From a virus, in IMG/VR virus record IMGVR_UViG_3300038366_000072, positions 1 to 31,716 of that record: a stretch of 31,716 bases of DNA, one strand, 5' to 3'. This document shows positions 5,139-31,716 of the stretch, piece by piece (the first letter of the stretch is position 1; every line of letters starts with the position of its first letter). Below the pieces are notes generated by a model. The model had not been told where the DNA came from. It searched no databases and saw nothing but the letters and a program-made list of their open reading frames with translations. Made by a program: the position numbers and the translations under genes.

Positions 5139-5160
5139 TGGAGAGTCGTATACTTTGTTT

Positions 5161-5631
5161 ATGGCTAGTCCGAATAATTTTAAAGAAAGTTTGATGGAAG
5201 CAGATTTTGATCTTGTAAACGATACTATACGTGTAGCACTGTTAAGTGACGACACTGCTTACAGTTTCAGTGCTGACAACCATACTTTTGTAAACGATAT
5301 TATTGATGGAGGTACAACAGCCACGGAGTTTTCAGGTACTGGTTACAGCCGTCAGACTTTGACTAATGTATCGGTGACTCAGGATGATACTGATGATGAG
5401 GGTGTTGCGGATGCTGATGATGTCACGTTTGCTAACTTGAATAATGATACGATTCAGGGTATTGTGATTTACAAGCAGGTGGGCGGTGATGATTCGACTC
5501 CTGGTGATGATCCTGTGATCGCTGTCTATGATAATGATAGTGGTACGACTTTGGCGGATCTGCCTTTACCGACTAATGGTGGGGATGTGACCTTGAACTT
5601 TTCAACTGAGGGAATCGTAAACATACAGTGA
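5161..5631 (+). CDS. Fibre-locus virion protein (tail/decoration family)
   Basis: 156 residues from ATG 5161. The plan is NFKESLMEADFDLVNDTIRVALLSDD at the start, VTFANLNNDTIQGIVIYK in the middle, and DLPLPTNGGDVTLNFSTEGIV at the end. This pattern recurs in small structural proteins of many tailed phages that precede fibre genes. The protein encoded at 28533-29300 has the same plan with an extra inserted domain, and it too is followed by a fibre gene, so the two loci look duplicated. I infer a fibre-attachment, collar or head-decoration role. Confidence 0.7.
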   Translation: MASPNNFKESLMEADFDLVNDTIRVALLSDDTAYSFSADNHTFVNDIIDGGTTATEFSGTGYSRQTLTNVSVTQDDTDDEGVADADDVTFANLNNDTIQGIVIYKQVGGDDSTPGDDPVIAVYDNDSGTTLADLPLPTNGGDVTLNFSTEGIVNIQ

Positions 5632-5644
5632 GGTCTAAAATAGA

Positions 5645-7567
5645 ATGACGGATTTTGTTTTTCCAGAGGATACCGGGACAGGTGCAGGTCAAGGCGATGA
5701 TAATGATGCTGCTAACTTTGGAGCTGCCTATGATGGTATTGGTTTAACTGATTTTGTCGTTAAGGGAATGGGTTTTACTTTGAATGCTGGTACGCCGTCT
5801 CTGGATTTGGGAAGTGGTAAGGCGGTTGTCAGTGATTCAAGTGCTACTGCAACACAGTCAGGTGAAACCAGAGATGAGGGCGTTGCTTTTGTAGTTGAAC
5901 TGGATGCACGTACAGGTATTTCGTTAACAAATTCAGCTGTTAACCACGTGTTTTTGCAGGTGGATTTAAGCTCGGATGACACGGTTAATATTGTCGTTAA
6001 TACTACTAATTCTGCGCCGAGTGAGCCACAGGTTAAACTCGGTACTGTTGACACCTCGAATGATACAACAACAGAGGTGAACAGAGATACACCTCTTCAA
6101 GTTGATGGGTTAAGAGGTGATAATGGTTCAAATGGACAGTTTTTACAAACTGATGGTACCAACCTTAGTTTTGCCTCTGTTCAAAAAGGTATGACGAATA
6201 TTGAGAGGCAGTTACAAAATGATAAAGTTGCAAGCATTGCTCTTTTAGAGTCTAAAAATAATCTCTCTGAAATAGATTATGATGGCGGTTTTTTCGAGAT
6301 TTTCCGTGACGAGTCCAAAATCGTTAATTCGACACAGGTTGCTTTGAAGACTTTGGATTCTGGTAATGCGGAAGGAGTAGCTGAAATATTGGAGAGTTTA
6401 GGAGCGCCAAATAAGTTGATAGAGACTTTGACTGACAGTTCAAACAATATTCAAGCCACTTCTTTGAGCAGTGATTTTCTGGCTGTTGGAAGCAACGATA
6501 ATAATACATATGTTTATGATACAACTAATTTTAATCTTCAGCATACTTTGACTGACAGCTCAGACAATGTTAACGGTGTTTCTTTGAGCAGTGATTTTCT
6601 GGCTGTTGGAAGCAAGGCTAATGTTGTTTATGTTTATGATACTACTAATTTTAATCTTCAGCATAGTTTATTTGCCCCCCAAGACAGGGTTAAGAGTGTT
6701 TCTTTGAGCAGTAATTTTTTGGTTGCTGGAACAGGGTTTGCTGACCAAGATGTCTATGTTTATGATACAACTAATTTTAATCTTCAGCATACTTTGACTG
6801 ACAGTACAGGCAGGGTTAACGGTGTTTCTTTGAGTGCTGATTTTCTGGCTGTTGGAAGTGGTGATGATAATACATATGTTTATGATACAACTAATTTTAA
6901 TCTTCAGCATACTTTGACTGACAGCTCAGACAATGTTAACGGTGTTTCTTTGAGCAGTGATTTTCTGGCTGTTGGAGGAGGTGGGTTTGACAGAGATGTT
7001 TATGTTTATGATACTACTAATTTTAATCTTCAGCATACTTTGACCGACAGCTCAGACAGTGTTAACGGTGTTTCTTTGAATGCTGATTTTCTGGCTGTTG
7101 GAAGCAGTGATGATAATACATATGTTTATGATACAACTAATTTTGATTTGCAAGATACGTTGACTGACAGCTCAGACAATGTTAATGGTGTTTCGCTTGT
7201 TGGTGAATATTTGGCTGTTGGAAGCAGTGATGATAATGCTTATGTTTATGAAAGGTCGCTTTTGTTTGCTGACAGCGGTACTATTGAGTGGAGTAAAGAC
7301 CTTTCACAAGATGGTTTTAGTAATCCTCCTTCAAATGTCGTAACAAGCTGGAATGTTACTTTGCCATCAAATACAAGTATAAGTATAGAGATAGCTGATG
7401 GTAGTGGTAATTCTGTAAATCTAAGCAAGTCTGATATTGATTCAGAGGTTGATTTGTCGCCTTTAACTAGCACTACTTTAGATATTACAGTGACATTAAG
7501 CCAGTCTTCAACTAATGATGACGTGACTCCAACTCTTAATGATTTGATGCTTAACTTCCAAAAGTAA
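5645..7567 (+). CDS. Fibre protein with a seven-bladed WD40-like beta-propeller
   Basis: 640 residues. Residues 1-160 form an attachment module with DNDAANFGAAYDG, LDARTGISLT, NHVFLQVDL and VKLGTVDTSNDT motifs, shared with the fibre protein at 29305. Residues 160-255 are a linker. Residues about 258-538 hold exactly seven repeats of 40-42 residues with the core TLTDSSDNVNGVSLSSDFLA and then VGS...YVYDTTNFNLQ, a WD40-type blade pattern closing a propeller. A C-terminal beta domain follows (WSKDLSQDG to LNDLMLNFQK), typical of phage tail proteins. Blades differ mainly in the turn after AVGS. I infer a host-receptor or glycan-binding spike. Its place among capsid genes allows a head fibre as well as a tail fibre. 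Confidence 0.8.
   Translation: MTDFVFPEDTGTGAGQGDDNDAANFGAAYDGIGLTDFVVKGMGFTLNAGTPSLDLGSGKAVVSDSSATATQSGETRDEGVAFVVELDARTGISLTNSAVNHVFLQVDLSSDDTVNIVVNTTNSAPSEPQVKLGTVDTSNDTTTEVNRDTPLQVDGLRGDNGSNGQFLQTDGTNLSFASVQKGMTNIERQLQNDKVASIALLESKNNLSEIDYDGGFFEIFRDESKIVNSTQVALKTLDSGNAEGVAEILESLGAPNKLIETLTDSSNNIQATSLSSDFLAVGSNDNNTYVYDTTNFNLQHTLTDSSDNVNGVSLSSDFLAVGSKANVVYVYDTTNFNLQHSLFAPQDRVKSVSLSSNFLVAGTGFADQDVYVYDTTNFNLQHTLTDSTGRVNGVSLSADFLAVGSGDDNTYVYDTTNFNLQHTLTDSSDNVNGVSLSSDFLAVGGGGFDRDVYVYDTTNFNLQHTLTDSSDSVNGVSLNADFLAVGSSDDNTYVYDTTNFDLQDTLTDSSDNVNGVSLVGEYLAVGSSDDNAYVYERSLLFADSGTIEWSKDLSQDGFSNPPSNVVTSWNVTLPSNTSISIEIADGSGNSVNLSKSDIDSEVDLSPLTSTTLDITVTLSQSSTNDDVTPTLNDLMLNFQK
6425..7255 (+). repeat. Seven tandem WD40-like coding repeats
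   Basis: Near-identical DNA units begin at about 6425, 6545, 6665, 6791, 6911, 7037 and 7157 (steps of 120 or 126 bp). The stretches encoding TLTDSSDNVNGVSL and YVYDTTNFNLQ are almost unchanged between units, while short insertions and substitutions fall after the AVGS turn. This is expected of recent tandem duplication with gene conversion. Confidence 0.85.
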
Positions 7568-7584
7568 TCAATAACTTAAAAATT

Positions 7585-8088
7585 ATGGACCAAAAAACAA
7601 GTTTCTTAATATTGATGTCATTTATTGCAGGTTTTTCAAGTTCTGCGTTTTTCATAAGTGATTTACAGCCAGAGGCAACTATTAATGTAAACAGGACGGA
7701 AGGTGATATTTCTCAGGTAAATAATATTGAACCTCCAAGATATAATTATATTCAAGCTAATAACCATGATGTAAATTATACTTGGACAGGAGACGAGGTT
7801 ACTGTTGAAGATGTTGACCAAGTTATTGAGGTTCACGGTAGTAGTATGCGTCCTACAAGTTTTACAGGTCATAAAGGTTTAGCCAAGGAATACAGTAATC
7901 AGTCCTTAAGTGAGGGCATGATTGTTGTGACAAAAGAAAACGTCATGCATAGGATTGAAGCAGATTACAGTGATACAGACGGATATTATATGATACGTGG
8001 TGATAATGCAGAGGATTTGAACAGGGTTGAAGATGAAGATATTGATTACGTTGTGATCGGCATGTTATATGATAAGCAGAGCCAATAA
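7585..8088 (+). CDS. Membrane-anchored Sec11-like (S26) serine peptidase
   Basis: 167 residues. An N-terminal hydrophobic segment (about 5-24) is followed by a linker of about 60 residues and a signal-peptidase-like catalytic region. GSSMRPT holds the candidate nucleophile Ser87. VMHRI places a His (H122) where bacterial enzymes have Lys, as in archaeal and ER Sec11. RGDNAEDLNR matches the conserved KGDNN...D box (D140 or D144). All three boxes are in order with normal spacing, so it is probably active on the outer face of the host membrane. The long linker and missing C-terminal membrane segment differ from cellular Sec11. It follows the propeller fibre gene by 17 bases. Substrates are unknown; viral exported proteins or host surface proteins are candidates. 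Confidence 0.75.
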   Translation: MDQKTSFLILMSFIAGFSSSAFFISDLQPEATINVNRTEGDISQVNNIEPPRYNYIQANNHDVNYTWTGDEVTVEDVDQVIEVHGSSMRPTSFTGHKGLAKEYSNQSLSEGMIVVTKENVMHRIEADYSDTDGYYMIRGDNAEDLNRVEDEDIDYVVIGMLYDKQSQ

Positions 8089-8091
8089 AAG

Positions 8092-8100
8092 TTTTTTTAA
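8092..8100 (+). promoter_or_regulatory. TATA-like promoter / T-run after the peptidase gene
   Basis: Seven T residues and AA lie directly after the stop codon, about 30 nt before the ATG at 8127. The wider sequence AAAGTTTTTT(T)AACT recurs at 9888-9901. Because archaeal polymerase also stops at T-runs, the element may end one transcript and start the next. Confidence 0.45.
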
Positions 8101-8126
8101 CTAATACAGGGCAATTTTGTTATAAA

Positions 8127-8684
8127 ATGGCTGATTTAGGGAGTCAAGATCTTGGTGGCGGTACTCTTGGAAGCGATGACAAAAGTATAGGTGTCAGTGA
8201 ATCCAGTGTATCGACCGATAGTCCTAGTGTTGGTTTGTCTGCAGGTGCTACAACTTTATCAGTGGTTGAGACTGGTCTGGTTTTTTCTGTACAGTCTTTG
8301 AACTTGGGTAGTGTTGTTGAGGTTTCTGTTGATGAGACTGTTAACACGGTGAAGGTTGAGGATGTGGATGTGGTGCCGGGTGCTGCCAGTTTACAAGTCA
8401 GTGAAACCACTTCAAACACTGTTAACAACAGTATAGGTGTAACGGGTGGTGCTGTTGACCTAGGTGTAGAGGCTGTCAGCAACATTATATCAGTTTCAGA
8501 TGGTGTCAATGTTTTACCGGGTAATGTAGATGTAGATGTAGCGGAGACTGTATTGTTTACCGACTCAGAGGAGACAGGTATTAAGAATATCTTGAATATT
8601 TCATCTCCGACAAAAGCTATAATTACAAACAGTGATAGGAAAGCATTTTATACATCCAAGGATAGATTTGTAGTATATGAGTGA
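8127..8684 (+). CDS. Repeat-rich beta virion protein
   Basis: 185 residues made of Val/Ser/Asp/Gly-rich repeats (VSESSVSTDS, VSVDETVNTV, ISVSDGVNVLPGNVDVDVAE), much like the proteins encoded at 30526 and 31416/2-781. The C-terminal 35 residues (ILNISSPTKAIITNSDRKAF onward) depart from the repeat and may be an attachment piece. No signal peptide or cysteine. It overlaps the BppU-like gene by 8 bases, so the two are translated together. A fibre, spike or baseplate appendage is likely; family not recognised. Confidence 0.65.
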   Translation: MADLGSQDLGGGTLGSDDKSIGVSESSVSTDSPSVGLSAGATTLSVVETGLVFSVQSLNLGSVVEVSVDETVNTVKVEDVDVVPGAASLQVSETTSNTVNNSIGVTGGAVDLGVEAVSNIISVSDGVNVLPGNVDVDVAETVLFTDSEETGIKNILNISSPTKAIITNSDRKAFYTSKDRFVVYE

Positions 8685-9003
8685 TCAAACATTCAAAGAA
8701 GGTGATCTAGGGGATGAGTTGGAGGCTACTTTGAAGGATGCGGATGGTCCCATAGATTTATCTGCAATTGACAAAGTTGATTTTGTTATGGAGGATAGGT
8801 CTGGTGACAAGGTTTTGGATGAACAGGTTAGTATTGTGAATGGATCTGAGGGCAGGATACAGTATCAATGGTCGCCGGGTGATCCGATTGAGGAGCCGGG
8901 TGTTTACCGTGCTGAGTTCCGTATTACTGACAGTGCCGGTGATACGGAGACTGTACCTAATGATGGTTATGATGTGATTGAGGTTGAGGAGGAGATTAAA
9001 TAA
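8677..9003 (+). CDS. BppU N-terminal-like virion protein
   Basis: 108 residues with the pattern of the phage baseplate upper protein N-terminal domain. FKEGDLGDELEATLKDADGP comes first, DLSAIDKVDFVMEDRSG follows, then YQWSPGDPIEEPGVYRAEFR and a closing strand with PNDGYDVIEVEEE. Such beta-sandwich domains link receptor-binding proteins to a baseplate or capsid vertex. Overlaps at both ends (8 bases with the upstream gene, 1 base with the connector gene) put it in the same translational unit. It probably anchors the repeat protein upstream. Confidence 0.75.
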   Translation: MSDQTFKEGDLGDELEATLKDADGPIDLSAIDKVDFVMEDRSGDKVLDEQVSIVNGSEGRIQYQWSPGDPIEEPGVYRAEFRITDSAGDTETVPNDGYDVIEVEEEIK

Positions 9004-15504: not shown

Positions 15505-15529
15505 CATCGTCTTGTTTTATTACTGGTTG

Positions 15530-15832
15530 ATGATTTCAAACGTTGATAATCGATTGGCTCAAGTTTTTGTTGTTGTATTAAGTGTTTTTTTGGTAGGAAG
15601 TGCTGTTTACATGGTCTTGGATGGTGCTGAGAAGGCTCCTGACAGGGATTTGAATGCGTCTGCCAGTAATGATAAGGTGTGTGTACCGCCCTATAGGGAT
15701 GGGGCTTGTTACCCGGTCAATGATTCGGTGAATGCCAGTCTACCAGCAAACCACACCTCAAATCAGACAAACACTTCTCAACAAGCTAACCAAACGGTGA
15801 ATATAACGGAGAATGTCAGTACAGTGCAGTGA
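15530..15832 (+). CDS. Single-pass surface protein dense in N-glycosylation sequons
   Basis: 100 residues from ATG 15530. A short N-terminus is followed by one hydrophobic segment (VFVVVLSVFLVGSAVYMVL) and an outer domain of about 70 residues. This domain carries nine N-x-S/T sequons (NAS, NDS, NAS, NHT, NQT, NTS, NQT, NIT, NVS) and two cysteines (KVCVPPYRDGACY). It overlaps the next gene, a two-TM protein, by 20 bases. A spanin-like or other lysis role, or remodelling of the infected cell surface, would fit this pairing after the tail genes. Archaeal AglB would be the expected glycosylating enzyme. Confidence 0.65.
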   Translation: MISNVDNRLAQVFVVVLSVFLVGSAVYMVLDGAEKAPDRDLNASASNDKVCVPPYRDGACYPVNDSVNASLPANHTSNQTNTSQQANQTVNITENVSTVQ

Positions 15833-16217
15833 CGGCAGTGAGTGCGGAAGCGGCCAAGAACATTTGATCAGATCTCTTAGCGTCTGCCTACCACATCGTG
15901 CGAGGGCTTGGATACATGATTACAAAGGCTTCATGTCCAAGAATGACGGATACCTAGACTATACAGAATGGCACGTTGCTGCTTGGAGCCTGATGCTGTC
16001 AGTAGCAACATTTGCATTACATGAGTTATTTGCAGGCATCTACCTGTTGTTGACAGTACGTGTAGTAAGAGATGAGTACAGTGAGCATTCAAGCCTATCT
16101 GAGATTGATGGAGAGCTACCATACTGGTTTGGAGTCTTTATCACTTCAGCTCTGGTGTTGCAGTACCTTGGTTTAACCGCTGATTTCAGTGGTTTGGTTT
16201 CGGTGCTTGGACTGTAA
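15813..16217 (+). CDS. Two-TM membrane protein, holin candidate
   Basis: 134 residues from ATG 15813. An amphipathic, basic N-terminal third (LIRSLSVCLPHRARAWIHDY) precedes two hydrophobic segments, roughly residues 52-80 (WHVAAWSLMLSVATFALHEL region) and 105-132 (WFGVFITSALVLQYLGL region). They are joined by a charged loop (RVVRDEYSEHSSLSEIDGE). Size, topology and place after the tail genes suggest a holin-like protein, but archaeal virus holins are poorly defined. Codon use is more C/A-rich than in the neighbours. It is followed by a T-rich terminator. Confidence 0.6.
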   Translation: MSVQCSDGSECGSGQEHLIRSLSVCLPHRARAWIHDYKGFMSKNDGYLDYTEWHVAAWSLMLSVATFALHELFAGIYLLLTVRVVRDEYSEHSSLSEIDGELPYWFGVFITSALVLQYLGLTADFSGLVSVLGL

Positions 16218-19010: not shown

Positions 19011-19354
19011 GGCGTGGTGACACCTTTTTCGTTTTATTTTTTGTCTTAATTACTACGGTGTCGGGTGTTGCGGTTCATGAATACACACATTTTTACTTGT
19101 TTCAGGAGGCTGGATGCAGTACAGATTTGAATGTTTTGAGTGAGGGTGATCCTGAGACTGGTTTGGCGGCTGCATCGGTTGAAGCTCATTGTAATGGTAC
19201 TGCGGAAGAGTTGCAGAGGTTGGATCAGACTCAGAGCATGGTAGAAAGTGTTGGCTATCAGGTCTTGCCGTTGTATATGTTGCTGGGTTTGATGTTAGCG
19301 CTTACAATCATCAATAGGCAGCCAAGGAGAAGGCGGAGGCGTGATGTTGTATGA
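19007..19354 (+). CDS. Membrane protein with an HEXXH metalloprotease motif
   Basis: About 115 residues if started at CTG 19007, which overlaps the upstream stop; a GTG at 19058 would give 98. The frame between the two encodes an obvious membrane segment (TFFVLFFVLITTVSGVAV) that leads straight into HEYTH, so the upstream start is preferred although it is non-standard. HEYTH is a zinc-protease signature; a later DPETG or AEAH-like region (SVEAHCNGT) may supply the third ligand. A second membrane segment (LPLYMLLGLMLALTIIN) and an Arg-rich end follow. It may be a small membrane metalloprotease; activity is unproven. Confidence 0.55.
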   Translation: MRRGDTFFVLFFVLITTVSGVAVHEYTHFYLFQEAGCSTDLNVLSEGDPETGLAAASVEAHCNGTAEELQRLDQTQSMVESVGYQVLPLYMLLGLMLALTIINRQPRRRRRRDVV

Positions 19355-19969: not shown

Positions 19970-20446
19970 ATGACAGGGCTGACCCAGAGAAAAGCTGCAC
20001 GTATGGAAGAGGCTGCCAAGCTCAAATGGGGTGAGGACTTGACCCATGAGGAGATAGCAGACGAACTGGATCTTGCTCACAGCACCATCGACCAGTATTT
20101 TAGCAGTGATCATATGGAGAAGTTTCAAAGGATTTTCACTGATATGGGGCGTTTTGAGTTGCAGCGTGTTTTGGAGCAACAGTTGTATGATATTGAGCAG
20201 GAGGCTGTTCAGAAGATTAGGGAGGCTGCTAATGATCCTGAAAGCACTGCTTCGGATCAGATCCGTGCTGGTAAGGAGTTGATGAATGTTGTTCGTAGGA
20301 AGTTGGAGATGCTTCAGCAGCTTGGAGTGGTTGAGAAGCCGAAGGAGCGTAGTAAGGTTGAGACTGGTGCTGATACTGATGAGTTACGTGAGGAACTGGT
20401 TGAGGGTTTGCAGACTAAACGTGAGGAGTTGATGTCTGAGGAATGA
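19970..20446 (+). CDS. Small terminase-like protein
   Basis: 158 residues. A helix-turn-helix lies at about residues 17-45 (LKWGEDLTHEEIADELDLAH, STIDQYFSS). A long helical oligomerisation region follows (RVLEQQLYDIEQEAVQKIRE, QIRAGKELMNVVRRKLEMLQ), with a charged C-terminus. This is the layout of small terminase subunits that recognise the packaging site. The large subunit is encoded 1.65 kb downstream, separated by eight small genes, rather than adjacent. The end overlaps the next gene by 4 bases (ATGA). Confidence 0.75.
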   Translation: MTGLTQRKAARMEEAAKLKWGEDLTHEEIADELDLAHSTIDQYFSSDHMEKFQRIFTDMGRFELQRVLEQQLYDIEQEAVQKIREAANDPESTASDQIRAGKELMNVVRRKLEMLQQLGVVEKPKERSKVETGADTDELREELVEGLQTKREELMSEE

Positions 20447-20715
20447 AGGATTACAAGCCTAGGGAGAAGCGGAAGCGTTATGGTGAGTTTACTGTTGTTG
20501 AGAAGTTGTTGCCTCCTTTCTTGAACTATATTGTTAGGAAGATTGTCTTGGGCTTGGTTGTGGTGTTGTTGACGGTTTCCAGGGTTTTATCCGGTTTGTT
20601 TGACTTCAGTATTGATGCCAGTGTAAGCGATAGAGATGAGTGGATTTGGCTGGATGATAAGGAGCTGCCTGTAGTGACTTTGGATAGTAAGAAGGTTAAT
20701 ACTAAATCGGAATAG
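20443..20715 (+). CDS. Small single-TM protein
   Basis: 90 residues. A basic N-terminus (MKDYKPREKRKRYGEF) precedes one hydrophobic stretch at about residues 25-50 (FLNYIVRKIVLGLVVVLLTV), and an acidic tail follows (SVSDRDEWIWLDDKELPVV). A membrane protein with the positive end inside. It is coupled to the small terminase by overlap. Its function is unknown; an accessory lysis or envelope-associated role cannot be excluded. Confidence 0.6.
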   Translation: MKDYKPREKRKRYGEFTVVEKLLPPFLNYIVRKIVLGLVVVLLTVSRVLSGLFDFSIDASVSDRDEWIWLDDKELPVVTLDSKKVNTKSE

Positions 20716-23908: not shown

Positions 23909-25138
23909 GTGAGCGATTCTATACGGTTTATTGATTTGTTCGGCGGTATCGGAGGCTTCCGCTTAGGACTTGAGCAAGCCTCTGACAGATACGAGTGCGT
24001 TGACTACATAGAATACGATGATTATGCGGTGAATTCATACAATGAAATCTTCGAAGAAGAACACGAACCAAAAGACGTTACTGAACTCGACACAAACCAA
24101 ATCCCAGAACACGACCTTATTTGTGCAGGATTTCCTTGCCAAGCATTCTCTGTCGCAGGAAACCGTGAAGGAACTGACGACTCCCGGGGCAAGCTCTTTC
24201 GTGAAATCGTTAGGATTGCACAAGCCCACAGACCTGAAATGCTTCTCCTTGAAAACGTTAAAGGACTTCTATCGCAGAAAGCAGTCCAAGACGGGGAATC
24301 TGTCGAAGGAACAAAAGGTCATGCGTTCAGAGAAATCCTATCGTCCCTTCATGAACTGGGGTATTGTCTCGAGTGGAGGGTGCTTAACAGCAAGAACTGG
24401 GGAGTCCCGCAAAACCGTGAAAGAGTCTTCATTGTCGGACATCTTGGAGGAGAACCCCGAGAAAAAGTATTTCCTCTCCCAAGAGAAAACCGAGAAGATA
24501 CTGGAGAAGATGGAAAAGGCTTAGGTGCTGTTAGCTATGGAACTCATAATCAGGATAGGTTGTTTAGCAGAAATGGTTTGTCTAGTACGCTAAGAGGTAA
24601 CGGTAATGCTGGGCATCATATCAAGGTTTTAGGTAATGTGAATCCTTCGGGTAGAGGTATGAATGAACAGGTTTACGAGGCTTACAGTGAGACTATTTCT
24701 CCTACTGTTACGACCAACAAGGGAGAGGGACACAAGATTATTGATGAGACATATGGCTTTGATGATGTTAGACAGTATGATGAATTGGTGCCAAACCTGA
24801 GAAGTGAACGCACAGGATTGAAGATTATCAATCATCAGATGCGTCCTGAGTCACGTCCAAGTATCCAAAACGGGCAGTCTGGGGGGAGTGGTATCCTGTT
24901 CAACAGTGATTATAGTTATGCGTTAAGCAGCAGCCCTCATTTTGCCAAGTGTTCTGATCGAAGGATTCGGAAGTTGACTCCTCGTGAGTGTTGGCGTTTG
25001 CAGGGGTTTCCTGACTGGGCTTTCAACGCAGCGCAGAAAGAAAACAGTGATACACAGCTCTACAAACAGGCAGGTAATGCTGTAACAGTTAATGTGATAG
25101 AAGCTCTTGGAAGAAAGATTGAGGAGGTTTATGACTAA
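23909..25138 (+). CDS. DNA (cytosine-5) methyltransferase
   Basis: 409 residues from GTG 23909. Motif I is FIDLFGGIGGFRLGLE. Motif IV is GFPCQAFSVAG with catalytic C77. Motif VI is ENV (115-117). Motif VIII is QNRERVFIVGH (168-178). Motif IX is RKLTPRECWRLQGFP, and motif X is QAGNAVTVNVIEALG. Residues about 205-355 form the target recognition domain; the target is not readable from sequence. No cognate restriction enzyme is present, so it probably protects viral DNA from host restriction or alters regulation. Codon style changes sharply at about 24525, between motif VIII and the recognition domain. Confidence 0.95.
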   Translation: MSDSIRFIDLFGGIGGFRLGLEQASDRYECVDYIEYDDYAVNSYNEIFEEEHEPKDVTELDTNQIPEHDLICAGFPCQAFSVAGNREGTDDSRGKLFREIVRIAQAHRPEMLLLENVKGLLSQKAVQDGESVEGTKGHAFREILSSLHELGYCLEWRVLNSKNWGVPQNRERVFIVGHLGGEPREKVFPLPRENREDTGEDGKGLGAVSYGTHNQDRLFSRNGLSSTLRGNGNAGHHIKVLGNVNPSGRGMNEQVYEAYSETISPTVTTNKGEGHKIIDETYGFDDVRQYDELVPNLRSERTGLKIINHQMRPESRPSIQNGQSGGSGILFNSDYSYALSSSPHFAKCSDRRIRKLTPRECWRLQGFPDWAFNAAQKENSDTQLYKQAGNAVTVNVIEALGRKIEEVYD

Positions 25139-28179: not shown

Positions 28180-28497
28180 ATGGCTGATAAAGGATTGAAG
28201 ATTTTCCGTGACGGTGATTTGGAGGATGAGGTGACTGATGGTTCTTTGGTTTTTGATCCTGTTAAGGCTGGTGAGGAGACTGTGCGTTCTATCTATGTTT
28301 TGAACAGTGTTGATTATGTGATAGAGGTGGATAGTTTTGTTTTAGAGAGCAGTGAAGAGGTTGAAGTATTAAGTGATTTGGAGAGTGTTGAGCCAGGTGA
28401 GAGCCGTGGTATTAGGCTGCGTTTTGCACCGGATTTTGATGTCCGTGAGCCTGTTGAGTTAAGTTTTTCTATTAACTACAGTTTCACGGTCAGGTAA
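28180..28497 (+). CDS. Ig-like small virion protein
   Basis: 105 residues. An alternating beta pattern (EETVRSIYVLNSVDYVIEVD, EVEVLSDLESVEPGESRGIR, FAPDFDVREPVELSFSIN) gives an Ig-like or fibronectin-like sandwich, similar to the archaeal and bacterial domains that contain VEPGES turns. It is the first gene of the cassette inserted between the two halves of the MuF domain. It probably links fibres to the virion. Confidence 0.68.
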   Translation: MADKGLKIFRDGDLEDEVTDGSLVFDPVKAGEETVRSIYVLNSVDYVIEVDSFVLESSEEVEVLSDLESVEPGESRGIRLRFAPDFDVREPVELSFSINYSFTVR

Positions 28498-28500
28498 AAG

Positions 28501-28509
28501 TTTTATAAG
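28501..28509 (+). promoter_or_regulatory. TATA-like promoter of the second fibre locus
   Basis: TTTTATAAG centred 28 nt before ATG 28533, again leaderless. It supports the ATG over the GTG at 28524. Confidence 0.5.
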
Positions 28510-28532
28510 AAAATACTTGTAAAGTGTTTGGT

Positions 28533-29300
28533 ATGGCAGTAACACCTGGACTTCCTAAAATTGGCGAACAGCGCTATCAAGATTTCTTAGATGGTAAAAC
28601 AGTTGATATTACATTATTTCATGATGGTAATCAGTCAGGGAATGTGGAGAAACCTGTTCAGGCTGTAGATACTACGAATGATATTATTGAGGTAAATGAT
28701 AATATTATTGATGATTCTGCTACAGGTACGGAGAACAGTGAGCAGACTCTTGGACCTAGAGGTTTTGCTTCAGGGGACTTCGGGTTTCTTGCTGATGGAC
28801 AGGCCTTTGAGATTAGTGGTTCGACAGGCAATGACCAGACGTATACTGTGAAGAATATGTTGTTTAACTTTCAGACTAATAGAACCTTGATTGAGGTTAA
28901 TGAAAGTGTTACGGATCCTACTCCTGATGGCTCTGCTTTATTCGGTAATAGTAACAGGTCAGGTAGAGGTGATAATCTTAGGGATGGAGATGATCTCGGT
29001 GATATTACCACTGAGCCTAATGACGGAGGTTTTACACGTGCGACTGCTCAGACGATTGAGAAGTTTGATAATGGGGACACGTATTTTATCAGGACGAAGA
29101 ATGACACGGTGTTTGATAATTTGAATGATACTACTGGACGTGTTGACGCTGTGGCTGTGATTGATAATTGGCAGGCGGCAGGTGAGTCAAGCCCTAATGA
29201 TCATATCTTGTTTACAGCTTTCCTTGACCAATTGTATCTTCTTGATCAGACGGACCGGCATACTGTTGATGCAAACACTATAAGATTGGCGATACGGTGA
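28533..29300 (+). CDS. Fibre-locus virion protein with inserted domain
   Basis: 255 residues from ATG 28533. The ends match the plan of the protein at 5161: KTVDITLFHDGN at the start, VFDNLNDTTGRVDAVAVIDN in the middle, HTVDANTIRLAI at the end. Between residues about 45 and 150 there is an extra domain with FEISGSTGNDQTYTVKNMLF and LIEVNESVTDPTPDGSALFG. This is the same small beta module that is inserted in the tail hub (13140). It precedes a fibre gene, as does the 5161 gene. A paralogous fibre-attachment or collar protein is inferred. Confidence 0.68.
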   Translation: MAVTPGLPKIGEQRYQDFLDGKTVDITLFHDGNQSGNVEKPVQAVDTTNDIIEVNDNIIDDSATGTENSEQTLGPRGFASGDFGFLADGQAFEISGSTGNDQTYTVKNMLFNFQTNRTLIEVNESVTDPTPDGSALFGNSNRSGRGDNLRDGDDLGDITTEPNDGGFTRATAQTIEKFDNGDTYFIRTKNDTVFDNLNDTTGRVDAVAVIDNWQAAGESSPNDHILFTAFLDQLYLLDQTDRHTVDANTIRLAIR

Positions 29301-29304
29301 ATAC

Positions 29305-30267
29305 ATGGCTTTCACCGACACGGATATTACTGCTTATGCTTTTCCGCAGGATGGCGCAAGTCCGGGGATAGCTGATACGGATGCGGACTGGAATAATGCG
29401 GCGTTTTTAGGTGCGTTGGCTAAGGCTAAGGCAAATAATTATGCTCCGCAGGGCTTGGATATTGTCACGGATCATGTTAATGAACAGTTTACTTTGACTG
29501 CTGGACTGGCTTTTATTGAGGATAAGGAGAATATACCGTTCAGGTTGTTTTCGGACAGTGAGATTAACAGGAGTGAGGTCTGGACCACGGGCTATATTTT
29601 GATGGTTGAGACTGAGGAGGAATCCAATATTTCTTTTGAGACAACTACAGGTAAGAACTTTGTCTACCTCGGGTTTACAAGACAGGCGCAGAATGACGTA
29701 TTTGTCCGTGTTGCTGATGATGAGGCGGATGCTCCAAGTAAGTCTGTTAAACTTGGTGAGATTGATGCTTCTGCGGATAGTAAACGTGAGCAGAACCGTG
29801 TTGCAGGTTTTCAGTATGAGTTTCTTGGTAAGAGAAGTACAAACGGTTTTGTAAACCAAGCCGACCTTGCGATACCTGACAGCAGCTTCGACGAATACAA
29901 GATAAAATTCATAAACGTCGAGGGTGATGCAGCAAGCGGTAACGTCACACTGCTTTCAAGAGTCAGCAACGTAAACTCCGGATCATACTTTTTCCGTACA
30001 ACACAGAATAATACACAGCAGGCAACCAGATTCAAATTATACCAGGGAAGACCGGACAGGTTCGGTATAAACGGTGAGTTGTTCGTATCGCAGAAAGGCG
30101 GCTTATTCACATTCGACAACCGGCTGACGTCCAACCAAGAGAAGCAGTTCGCATTCTCCGGAGGAAGCACAGATCCAGCGATAACACCTTTATCAAGTCT
30201 TCAACTGTTTTTCACGTCGGGGCAGATTAACGCAGAGATAAACGTATGGGGTAGAAACAATTTATGA
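29305..30267 (+). CDS. Second fibre protein, shared anchor with a swapped tip
   Basis: 320 residues. The first 180 follow the same plan as the propeller fibre (5645): DADWNNAAFLGALAKAKANN, NFVYLGFTRQAQNDVFVRV, and KSVKLGEIDASADSKREQNR. From about residue 185 a different beta-rich domain follows (FDEYKIKFINVEGDAASGNV, RFKLYQGRPDRFGINGELFV), resembling a jelly-roll tip. Third-position bases switch from G/T-rich to A/C-rich at the same point (about 29855), suggesting that the tip came from another genome. It ends in LQLFFTSGQINAEINVWGRN. Probable receptor-binding protein. It overlaps the next gene by 4 bases. Confidence 0.72.
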   Translation: MAFTDTDITAYAFPQDGASPGIADTDADWNNAAFLGALAKAKANNYAPQGLDIVTDHVNEQFTLTAGLAFIEDKENIPFRLFSDSEINRSEVWTTGYILMVETEEESNISFETTTGKNFVYLGFTRQAQNDVFVRVADDEADAPSKSVKLGEIDASADSKREQNRVAGFQYEFLGKRSTNGFVNQADLAIPDSSFDEYKIKFINVEGDAASGNVTLLSRVSNVNSGSYFFRTTQNNTQQATRFKLYQGRPDRFGINGELFVSQKGGLFTFDNRLTSNQEKQFAFSGGSTDPAITPLSSLQLFFTSGQINAEINVWGRNNL

Positions 30268-30515
30268 GTCACCACACAATGTACTGGGAATTCGACAACG
30301 ACAGAGATAATATACACCTTTACATGGAAAGCAGCGACCAAGAGCTTACCAACAGCCCGATAGAAGCTACAGGCGTAACAGAGCTTCCGGAAGATTTCAT
30401 GCCTTGTGTCGCCTACGAGATGAAGGAGGAGTTCAATAACAACGGTTTTACGACACGTATGATGAATATTATTTTAGCTCAGGCACAACCCGACATATAC
30501 ATAAAAAAGAAGTAA
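30264..30515 (+). CDS. Small protein downstream of the second fibre
   Basis: 83 residues, start overlapping the fibre stop (ATGA). Aromatic and acidic first half (MYWEFDNDRDNIHLYMESSD), a helical middle (EDFMPCVAYEMKEEFNNNGF), basic end. It shares the A/C-rich codon style of the fibre tip, so it probably moved with it. A fibre-assembly chaperone or a tip partner is plausible. Confidence 0.6.
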   Translation: MSHHTMYWEFDNDRDNIHLYMESSDQELTNSPIEATGVTELPEDFMPCVAYEMKEEFNNNGFTTRMMNIILAQAQPDIYIKKK

Positions 30516-30525
30516 ATAATTTTTT

Positions 30526-31416
30526 ATGGGACGTATAAATACGAATGCAAACGGGGCAACAGGAAGCACAAGACTTGCAGGTAAAAGATTGTCGTTCCCT
30601 GACTTTCAGAGAAGTGAGTCAATTTCAGGTGAGGCTTTGTCCAGTGTTGAATTACCTGTTTTATCCTCTATAGCTGATGCTGATTCAGGTGAGGCTGTTG
30701 GTAGAGCCGATGTTCCGACTATTAGTGTGGTTCATGATTCTGTTACTGGTGAAGGTGAGGCCAGAGGCGATGTACCTGAGTCACGGATCGTGCATGATGC
30801 TACTACTGGTGAGGGTACTGCACGTGCGGATATTCCTGAGACTTTAGTAGTTGCAGATGCAACAAGTGGGAGAGGCTTAGCTACAGCCGATATTCCTATT
30901 ACACGGATTGTACATGATGCGGATACAGGTGAGGCTATTGGCACCGCAGATATTACTGTCAATAGGGAGGTTAGTGATGTAAACCAGTCAAGGGCTGATG
31001 CTGAGGGCAGTATTTCTAACAGTATATCTATCGCTATCTCTCAGGCAACGGATTCTGATGCTGTTGCACGTGCTGATCTCTGTATTGTTACTTATCTGGC
31101 AGGTCTTGGAGGTACTGTGGTTTTTGAGGAAGGTGGTCCGGGTGTGGAAGGCGCTGAAGTCCATATAATAAGAAACAACGATGACACCAAGGTTGCTACA
31201 ACCACGACAGATGCTGACGGTCGGTGGCATGTGACTTTACCTGGAGGTAAAACTACGGATCCGGATCCTGAGGTGTACAGTATAGAGGTCTGGTATCGTG
31301 AGGGAGCTAAAAGAGATAAGAATACCGAGCTTTACAATGCTGAGAATCGGCCTTTCATTGATACAGCTGATCCATCTGAACGTGATCCGTATGAGGATGA
31401 TAATATAGAGAACTGA
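30526..31416 (+). CDS. Repeat fibre protein with a CnaB-like domain
   Basis: 296 residues. After a short lead, residues about 29-150 hold six 20-residue repeats on the pattern VHDATTGEGTARADIPETLV. Residues about 194-265 form a CnaB or carboxypeptidase-regulatory-like beta domain (GGTVVFEEGGPGVEGAEVHI, TTTTDADGRWHVTLPGGKT). An acidic tail follows. Such repeats form rods and CnaB domains act as rigid spacers or carbohydrate-facing units, so a virion spike is inferred. The last base of the stop is the A of the next ATG (TGATG). Confidence 0.72.
   Translation: MGRINTNANGATGSTRLAGKRLSFPDFQRSESISGEALSSVELPVLSSIADADSGEAVGRADVPTISVVHDSVTGEGEARGDVPESRIVHDATTGEGTARADIPETLVVADATSGRGLATADIPITRIVHDADTGEAIGTADITVNREVSDVNQSRADAEGSISNSISIAISQATDSDAVARADLCIVTYLAGLGGTVVFEEGGPGVEGAEVHIIRNNDDTKVATTTTDADGRWHVTLPGGKTTDPDPEVYSIEVWYREGAKRDKNTELYNAENRPFIDTADPSERDPYEDDNIEN
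30610..30975 (+). repeat. 60-bp coding repeats, about six copies
   Basis: Tandem units of 60 bp encode the 20-residue repeats of the protein at 30526. Repeat borders are marked by GATGC/GATTC (Asp) at the start of each unit. The units are diverged in DNA, unlike the WD40 repeats, so this array is older. Confidence 0.65.
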
Positions 31417-31716
31417 TGGCACGTTATGATCCACCTAAGGACTGGTCTGAGACAGAAATAGTTCTGCAGGAGTATGATCCTCCAAAGGATTGGAGTGAGA
31501 CAGTTATCAAGTTGGATCCTGATACAGGTCCTGATATAACTATACAGAACAGCCAAGGTATAGGCGGTGAGGCTGAGGCTGATGGCAGTTTATCCAGTTC
31601 TCAGGTTAAGTCAGGTATCAGTGTCTCTGATGCTGAATCTGTTGGCAGTGTCTCTGATTCAAAGGTTCGGACGCAGATCTCTCAGGGTAAGGCTGTTGCT
31701 GATGCTGATGTTTCTT
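31416..31716 (+). CDS. Repeat-rich virion surface protein, 5' part (continues across the junction at position 2)
   Basis: Starts at ATG 31416, one base overlapping the upstream stop. The N-terminus carries a near-perfect internal duplication (YDPPKDWSETEIVLQE, then YDPPKDWSETVIKLDP), probably an attachment motif repeated twice. The frame is open at the window's right edge and in register with the frame at position 2, so the two are one gene on the circle. Relative to the left-hand copy it has D-A-E-S instead of R-G-E-I in one repeat. Confidence 0.72.
   Translation, partial: MARYDPPKDWSETEIVLQEYDPPKDWSETVIKLDPDTGPDITIQNSQGIGGEAEADGSLSSSQVKSGISVSDAESVGSVSDSKVRTQISQGKAVADADVS
31463..31716. repeat. 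Terminal overlap, right copy (circular assembly)
   Basis: This is the right-hand copy of bases 1-254. Nine of the 11 differences fall in a 21-base patch. There they change the encoded residues R-G-E-I of the left copy to D-A-E-S here, while the flanks on both sides are nearly identical. The patch lies inside a repeat-rich surface protein gene. Confidence 0.8.

Follow-up and report, generated by a model that had tools for sequence, protein, structure and literature searches.

A predicted membrane-tethered S26B-like serine peptidase encoded next to the fibre gene of a tailed halovirus

The viral record analysed here over its full 31,716 bases (the window) carries, at positions 7585-8088 of the + strand, an ORF of 167 residues that contains the catalytic boxes of the S26B signal peptidases in their usual order and spacing, and that lies with a fibre gene in a cassette which is exchanged among related viruses. 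From these features and a predicted S26B fold we infer, with a probability of about 0.5, a serine peptidase of S26B (Sec11/SipW) type that is anchored in the membrane and would face outward on a long tether, its substrate being a protein that is exported or displayed on the surface. As signal peptidases have already been annotated among viral proteins, the enzyme is not a new kind; what appears from its sequence to be new is the placing of S26B boxes on a long tether within a receptor-binding cassette.

The order and spacing of Ser87, His122 and Asp140 are those of the signal peptidases of the endoplasmic reticulum and of archaea (S26B). The Ser box, GSSMRPT (residues 85-91; 7837-7857), provides the SMxP motif and the putative nucleophile, Ser87 (7843-7845); in the His box, VMHRI (7942-7956), His122 (7948-7950) and Arg123 replace the bacterial Lys; and the acid box, GDNAEDLNR (residues 139-147; 7999-8025), opens with the Gly139-Asp140 pair (Asp140, 8002-8004). 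Ser, His-Arg and the first Asp are each invariant across A6, an alignment of 28 S26B relatives, most of them cellular. A single hydrophobic segment, either a signal anchor or a signal peptide, occupies residues 8-24 (7606-7656; mean hydropathy 2.01), so that the original prediction of a membrane segment followed by GSSMRPT, VMHRI and RGDN, with His in place of Lys, holds both in the ORF and in the S26B alignment. A run of T immediately after the stop codon (8089-8100) is a possible terminator.

Membership of the S26B group is supported by profile searches, at a level that is weak and dependent on the profile used. The NCBIfam model TIGR02228 (sigpep_I_arch) matches residues 77-152 with an E-value of 8.3e-4 and 19.3 bits, below its curated cut-off of 51.85 bits. 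With a profile built from 14 S26B proteins or domains, mostly of haloarchaeal plasmids and leaving out the window protein, the peptidase scores 23.8 bits, whereas the highest score among 2000 shuffles is 10.8 bits. Every other listed gene of the window scores nowhere near it and, when 3524 frames were scanned, drawn from the window and from 17 stretches of related viral and proviral DNA, ORF 7585-8088 was the sole match. On the other hand, a narrower profile of 73 haloarchaeal enzymes of the GDNNPxxDQ type gives 7.0 bits, within the range of the shuffles, which points to a remote S26B relative rather than to a recent copy of a host-type enzyme. No family of Pfam, PHROG or PADLOC matches the protein meaningfully, and phmmer finds no relative of it in the PDB.

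The acid box departs from the pattern of the better-known enzymes. For the eukaryotic signal peptidase, Ser56, His96, Asp116 and Asp122 have been described as indispensable, the second Asp being placed six residues past the first (in the human enzyme, D122 after D116; PMC6850559), while in archaeal enzymes only one Asp is essential (PMC2913515). In plain register, the second-Asp position (GD+6) of the viral peptidase is taken by Asn146, with Asp144 two residues earlier, and alignments differ at this point: the HMM places Asp144 there at the cost of a two-residue deletion, MAFFT selects Asp150. Thus, of the Ser/His/Asp pattern originally proposed, Ser87, His122 and Asp140 stand, and the second Asp, the one taken to belong to the Sec11 triad, is out of register. 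This displacement would fit a catalytically dead protein of S26 fold, which binds a surface target rather than cutting it, and one of the top fold matches (see below) is Streptococcus SipA, described in its title as a homologue of signal peptidases that is essential for polymerising pili. However, Ser, His and the Asp of the GD pair are all retained, and a deletion of two residues may have left Asp144 to take over from the second Asp, so that we regard a dead enzyme as quite unlikely. In an active peptidase Ser87 would act as nucleophile and His122 as base, with the acid supplied by Asp144 (or Asp140).

An AlphaFold2 model built with alignment A6 has block-mean pLDDT values of 69-86 over residues 61-160 and of about 30 before residue 50. 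When the model was compared with known structures by Foldseek and VIA-align, the top ranks were taken by LexA/UmuD/CI domains and by signal peptidases, namely LexA (6a2q, Z 8.7), SipA (4n31, Z 8.6), Escherichia coli SPase I (3s04, Z 8.1) and human SEC11C (7p2q, Z 7.5); Z values of 7-8 are to be read as middling. The A6 profile finds SEC11A/C when searched against the PDB. The modelling drew on S26B sequences, and AlphaFold2 run on the single sequence, without the S26B alignment, gave no confident model (pLDDT 35) and was uninformative; the LexA/signal-peptidase fold of the ectodomain is, therefore, supported, but not independently proven. Together with the TIGR02228 match and the S26B profile score above shuffles, the modelled fold supports the Sec11-like serine-peptidase domain of the original prediction. 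LexA chains match the signal peptidases in score, which raises the alternative of an autoprotease domain of LexA/CI type, which shares the superfamily fold. These domains, however, are soluble, rely on a Ser-Lys dyad and, in LexA and CI, are fused to a DNA-binding domain, whereas the viral protein has His122 at the place of the Lys (S24) by the S26B alignment, an N-terminal membrane segment and neither a DNA-binding domain nor a match to Pfam Peptidase_S24; the His box and membrane segment already disfavour the alternative, which we consider barely credible.

The viral protein also departs from its relatives in the distance between the membrane segment and the active site. Measured alike, the Ser is 62 residues from the membrane segment in the viral peptidase and 6-20 residues (median 15) in 93 relatives, all of which have it close to the membrane. 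The original prediction had described a 60-residue linker; the spacing is indeed long, but not all of it is linker, as residues 53-82 (7741-7830) are modelled as extra strands ahead of the Ser box (53-58, 65-68, 71-74 and 79-82). These are joined to the catalytic domain in the model, so that the disordered tether would be restricted to about residues 25-52 (7657-7740; pLDDT about 30), that is some 28 residues. The N-terminal anchor and the acidic residues that follow it make it probable that the C-terminal, catalytic domain lies on the outer side of the host cytoplasmic membrane, to which a long flexible tether would attach it.

Among the known systems nearest to it is the archaeal type I signal peptidase Sec11 (MEROPS S26B, TIGR02228), with which the viral protein shares the Ser, His-Arg and Gly-Asp boxes in order, His for Lys, the N-terminal membrane segment and, as predicted, an external catalytic domain; it differs in the sub-cut-off match, the second Asp out of register, the spacing of 62 instead of 6-20 residues and in stopping directly after the catalytic domain. 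The same boxes are found in the SipW-type signal peptidases of TasA operons, and the viral protein scores better with the profile rich in this type than with that of the haloarchaeal GDNNPxxDQ type, but it differs in its long tether and in having no recognised TasA-like neighbour in the window. Such similarities make it conceivable that the virus owns a signal peptidase dedicated to a single exported viral protein or to a small number of them, as SipW is to TasA. Besides the shared boxes, the fact that haloarchaeal plasmid-borne peptidases of this kind adjoin proteins with SipW-type signals or TasA family proteins, their likely substrates, speaks for this arrangement (and equally for the outward-facing peptidase), as do other short membrane proteins encoded in the window (15512-15832, 15813-16217 and 20443-20715). 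However, the adjoining genes 5645-7567 and 8127-8684 encode no segment resembling a signal peptide, and the position of the Ser is outside the range of the 93 relatives. Signal peptidases cleave adjacent to the membrane, and an active site well away from the membrane plane is, therefore, probably not that of a general signal peptidase; overall, we give a dedicated signal peptidase odds well short of even. If the outward-facing peptidase is instead the correct reading, an S26B catalytic domain would be operating away from the membrane surface.

By its sequence, the source virus belongs to the tailed haloviruses and has Halorubrum tailed virus 28 (HRTV-28, Suolaviridae) as a distant relative, the capsid proteins of the two being 31% identical. 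Three viral contigs (L002, L003 and L004) are closer, with the order of the head genes kept and capsid identities of 87, 88 and 57%, respectively. The peptidase gene starts 17 bases after the fibre gene (5645-7567, +), in agreement with the location first proposed, and both belong to a variable receptor-binding cassette (5645-8676, +) set between conserved genes at 5155-5631 and 8677-9003. The C-terminal half of the fibre is a WD40-type beta-propeller (Pfam WD40, 1.8e-13), the proposed receptor binder. At the fibre slot L002 has a different propeller-like protein, L003 long fibres and L004 laminin-G-like proteins, with a phrog_644-like gene downstream of the latter; the peptidase is absent from all three, which have the flanking genes. 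The peptidase (0.357) and then the fibre gene (0.385) are lowest in GC content among the 42 listed genes, which fits their recent gain together. In the same cassette, L003 (10397-11449) has an ORF of 350 residues that by eye resembles phosphatases/phosphodiesterases and has no Pfam match.

The vicinity of the fibre gene also raises the question of whether a virion protein, such as the adjoining fibre itself, is processed, as had been suggested in the original prediction. Tailed viruses put their fibres together in the cytoplasm, whereas the active site is predicted to face the outside, which makes a virion-protein substrate unlikely, and a prohead protease-like gene is already present at 1189-2997; despite the gene order, such processing is, in our view, distinctly improbable. 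The reach of a tethered domain would suit surface-layer proteins rather than virion proteins, and an S-layer or other surface protein is a possible substrate.

The position of the peptidase in a receptor-binding cassette that is swapped among relatives suggests action on the surface target of the fibre. In phage T5 the gene of a receptor-blocking lipoprotein adjoins that of the receptor-binding protein and, by analogy, the viral peptidase may eliminate the receptor to which the adjoining fibre binds. The role that we favour for the outward-facing peptidase is, thus, to remove or alter the surface protein that the fibre recognises, whereby re-adsorption would be blocked or release aided; this specific role, a hypothesis drawn from gene place and analogy, is put forward tentatively. 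To our knowledge, hardly any receptor of a haloarchaeal tailed virus has been identified, and we know of no account of how infected cells avoid re-binding of progeny virions. In the tailed halovirus HFTV1 the receptor is an S-layer protein, in favour of a surface substrate; on the other hand, HFTV1 shows no superinfection exclusion (PMC9973310), which counts against receptor removal. The broader picture, of a signal-peptidase fold turned into a long-tethered 'surface shaver' that cuts the host target of the fibre and is exchanged with it as one receptor module, is more speculative and, taken as a whole, unlikely. The association of the peptidase with a fibre gene provides a testable link, since finding the substrate of the former may reveal the receptor of the latter.

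No close homologue of the peptidase was found in the databases searched. Pattern scans of IMG/VR viral contigs with the peptidase, its core, alignments A3 and A4 and a consensus returned no relative, these being exact patterns of low sensitivity; nor did a scan of genome contigs with the peptidase, or a tblastn search of phages and plasmids, and an IMG/VR pattern scan with the fibre likewise found no relative of the fibre. Among 391 genomes of the class of a Halorubrum genome (G011), the four best matches are weak (E 0.0015-0.009), and PIN-type toxin genes read at three of the loci indicate that they are due to chance; they were rejected as homologues. In 50,697 phage records, matches were limited to unannotated gut contigs filed as 'Bacteriophage sp.', with no annotated phage record among them; one such contig (MT835649) was rejected as a phage, as it resembles a Firmicutes-type TasA/SipW operon and is probably a misfiled bacterial contig. 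The statement that tailed viruses are not generally known to carry such an enzyme was, however, too strong: BFVD lists proteins annotated as signal peptidases from uncultured Caudovirales phage, Myoviridae sp. and Pandoraviruses, the phage proteins being named sigpep_I_arch, Peptidase S26 or SipA. A0A6J5PXA0, A0A8S5LXF4 and a Pandoravirus SPase I share the fold of the window peptidase by Foldseek, but only about 16-22% identity. The main survey of archaeal tailed viruses makes no mention of 'signal peptidase', and a search of open papers found none on phage-encoded signal peptidases or on a comparison with Llp of T5.

Other features of the window may be recorded. Genes that resemble those of fibres or adhesins fill about 4 kb (28180-31416 and 50-781) between the portal gene and gene 811-1128; this region is missing from L003, where the matches to the two flanking genes are 7 bases apart, and constitutes a second variable cassette. 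The ends of the record (1-254 and 31463-31716) form an imperfect direct repeat of 254 bases, 96.5% identical, which suggests either that the genome is circularly permuted and nearly complete or that an adhesin segment is repeated. A protein of 98 residues (19058-19354), with no PHROG or Pfam match, has a HEYTH motif and a C-terminal membrane segment and is a possible metallopeptidase. Finally, ORF 23909-25138 resembles, by eye, a DNA cytosine-5 methyltransferase (motif GFPCQAFS), and HRTV-28 likewise has a DNA methyltransferase gene adjoining that of the terminase.
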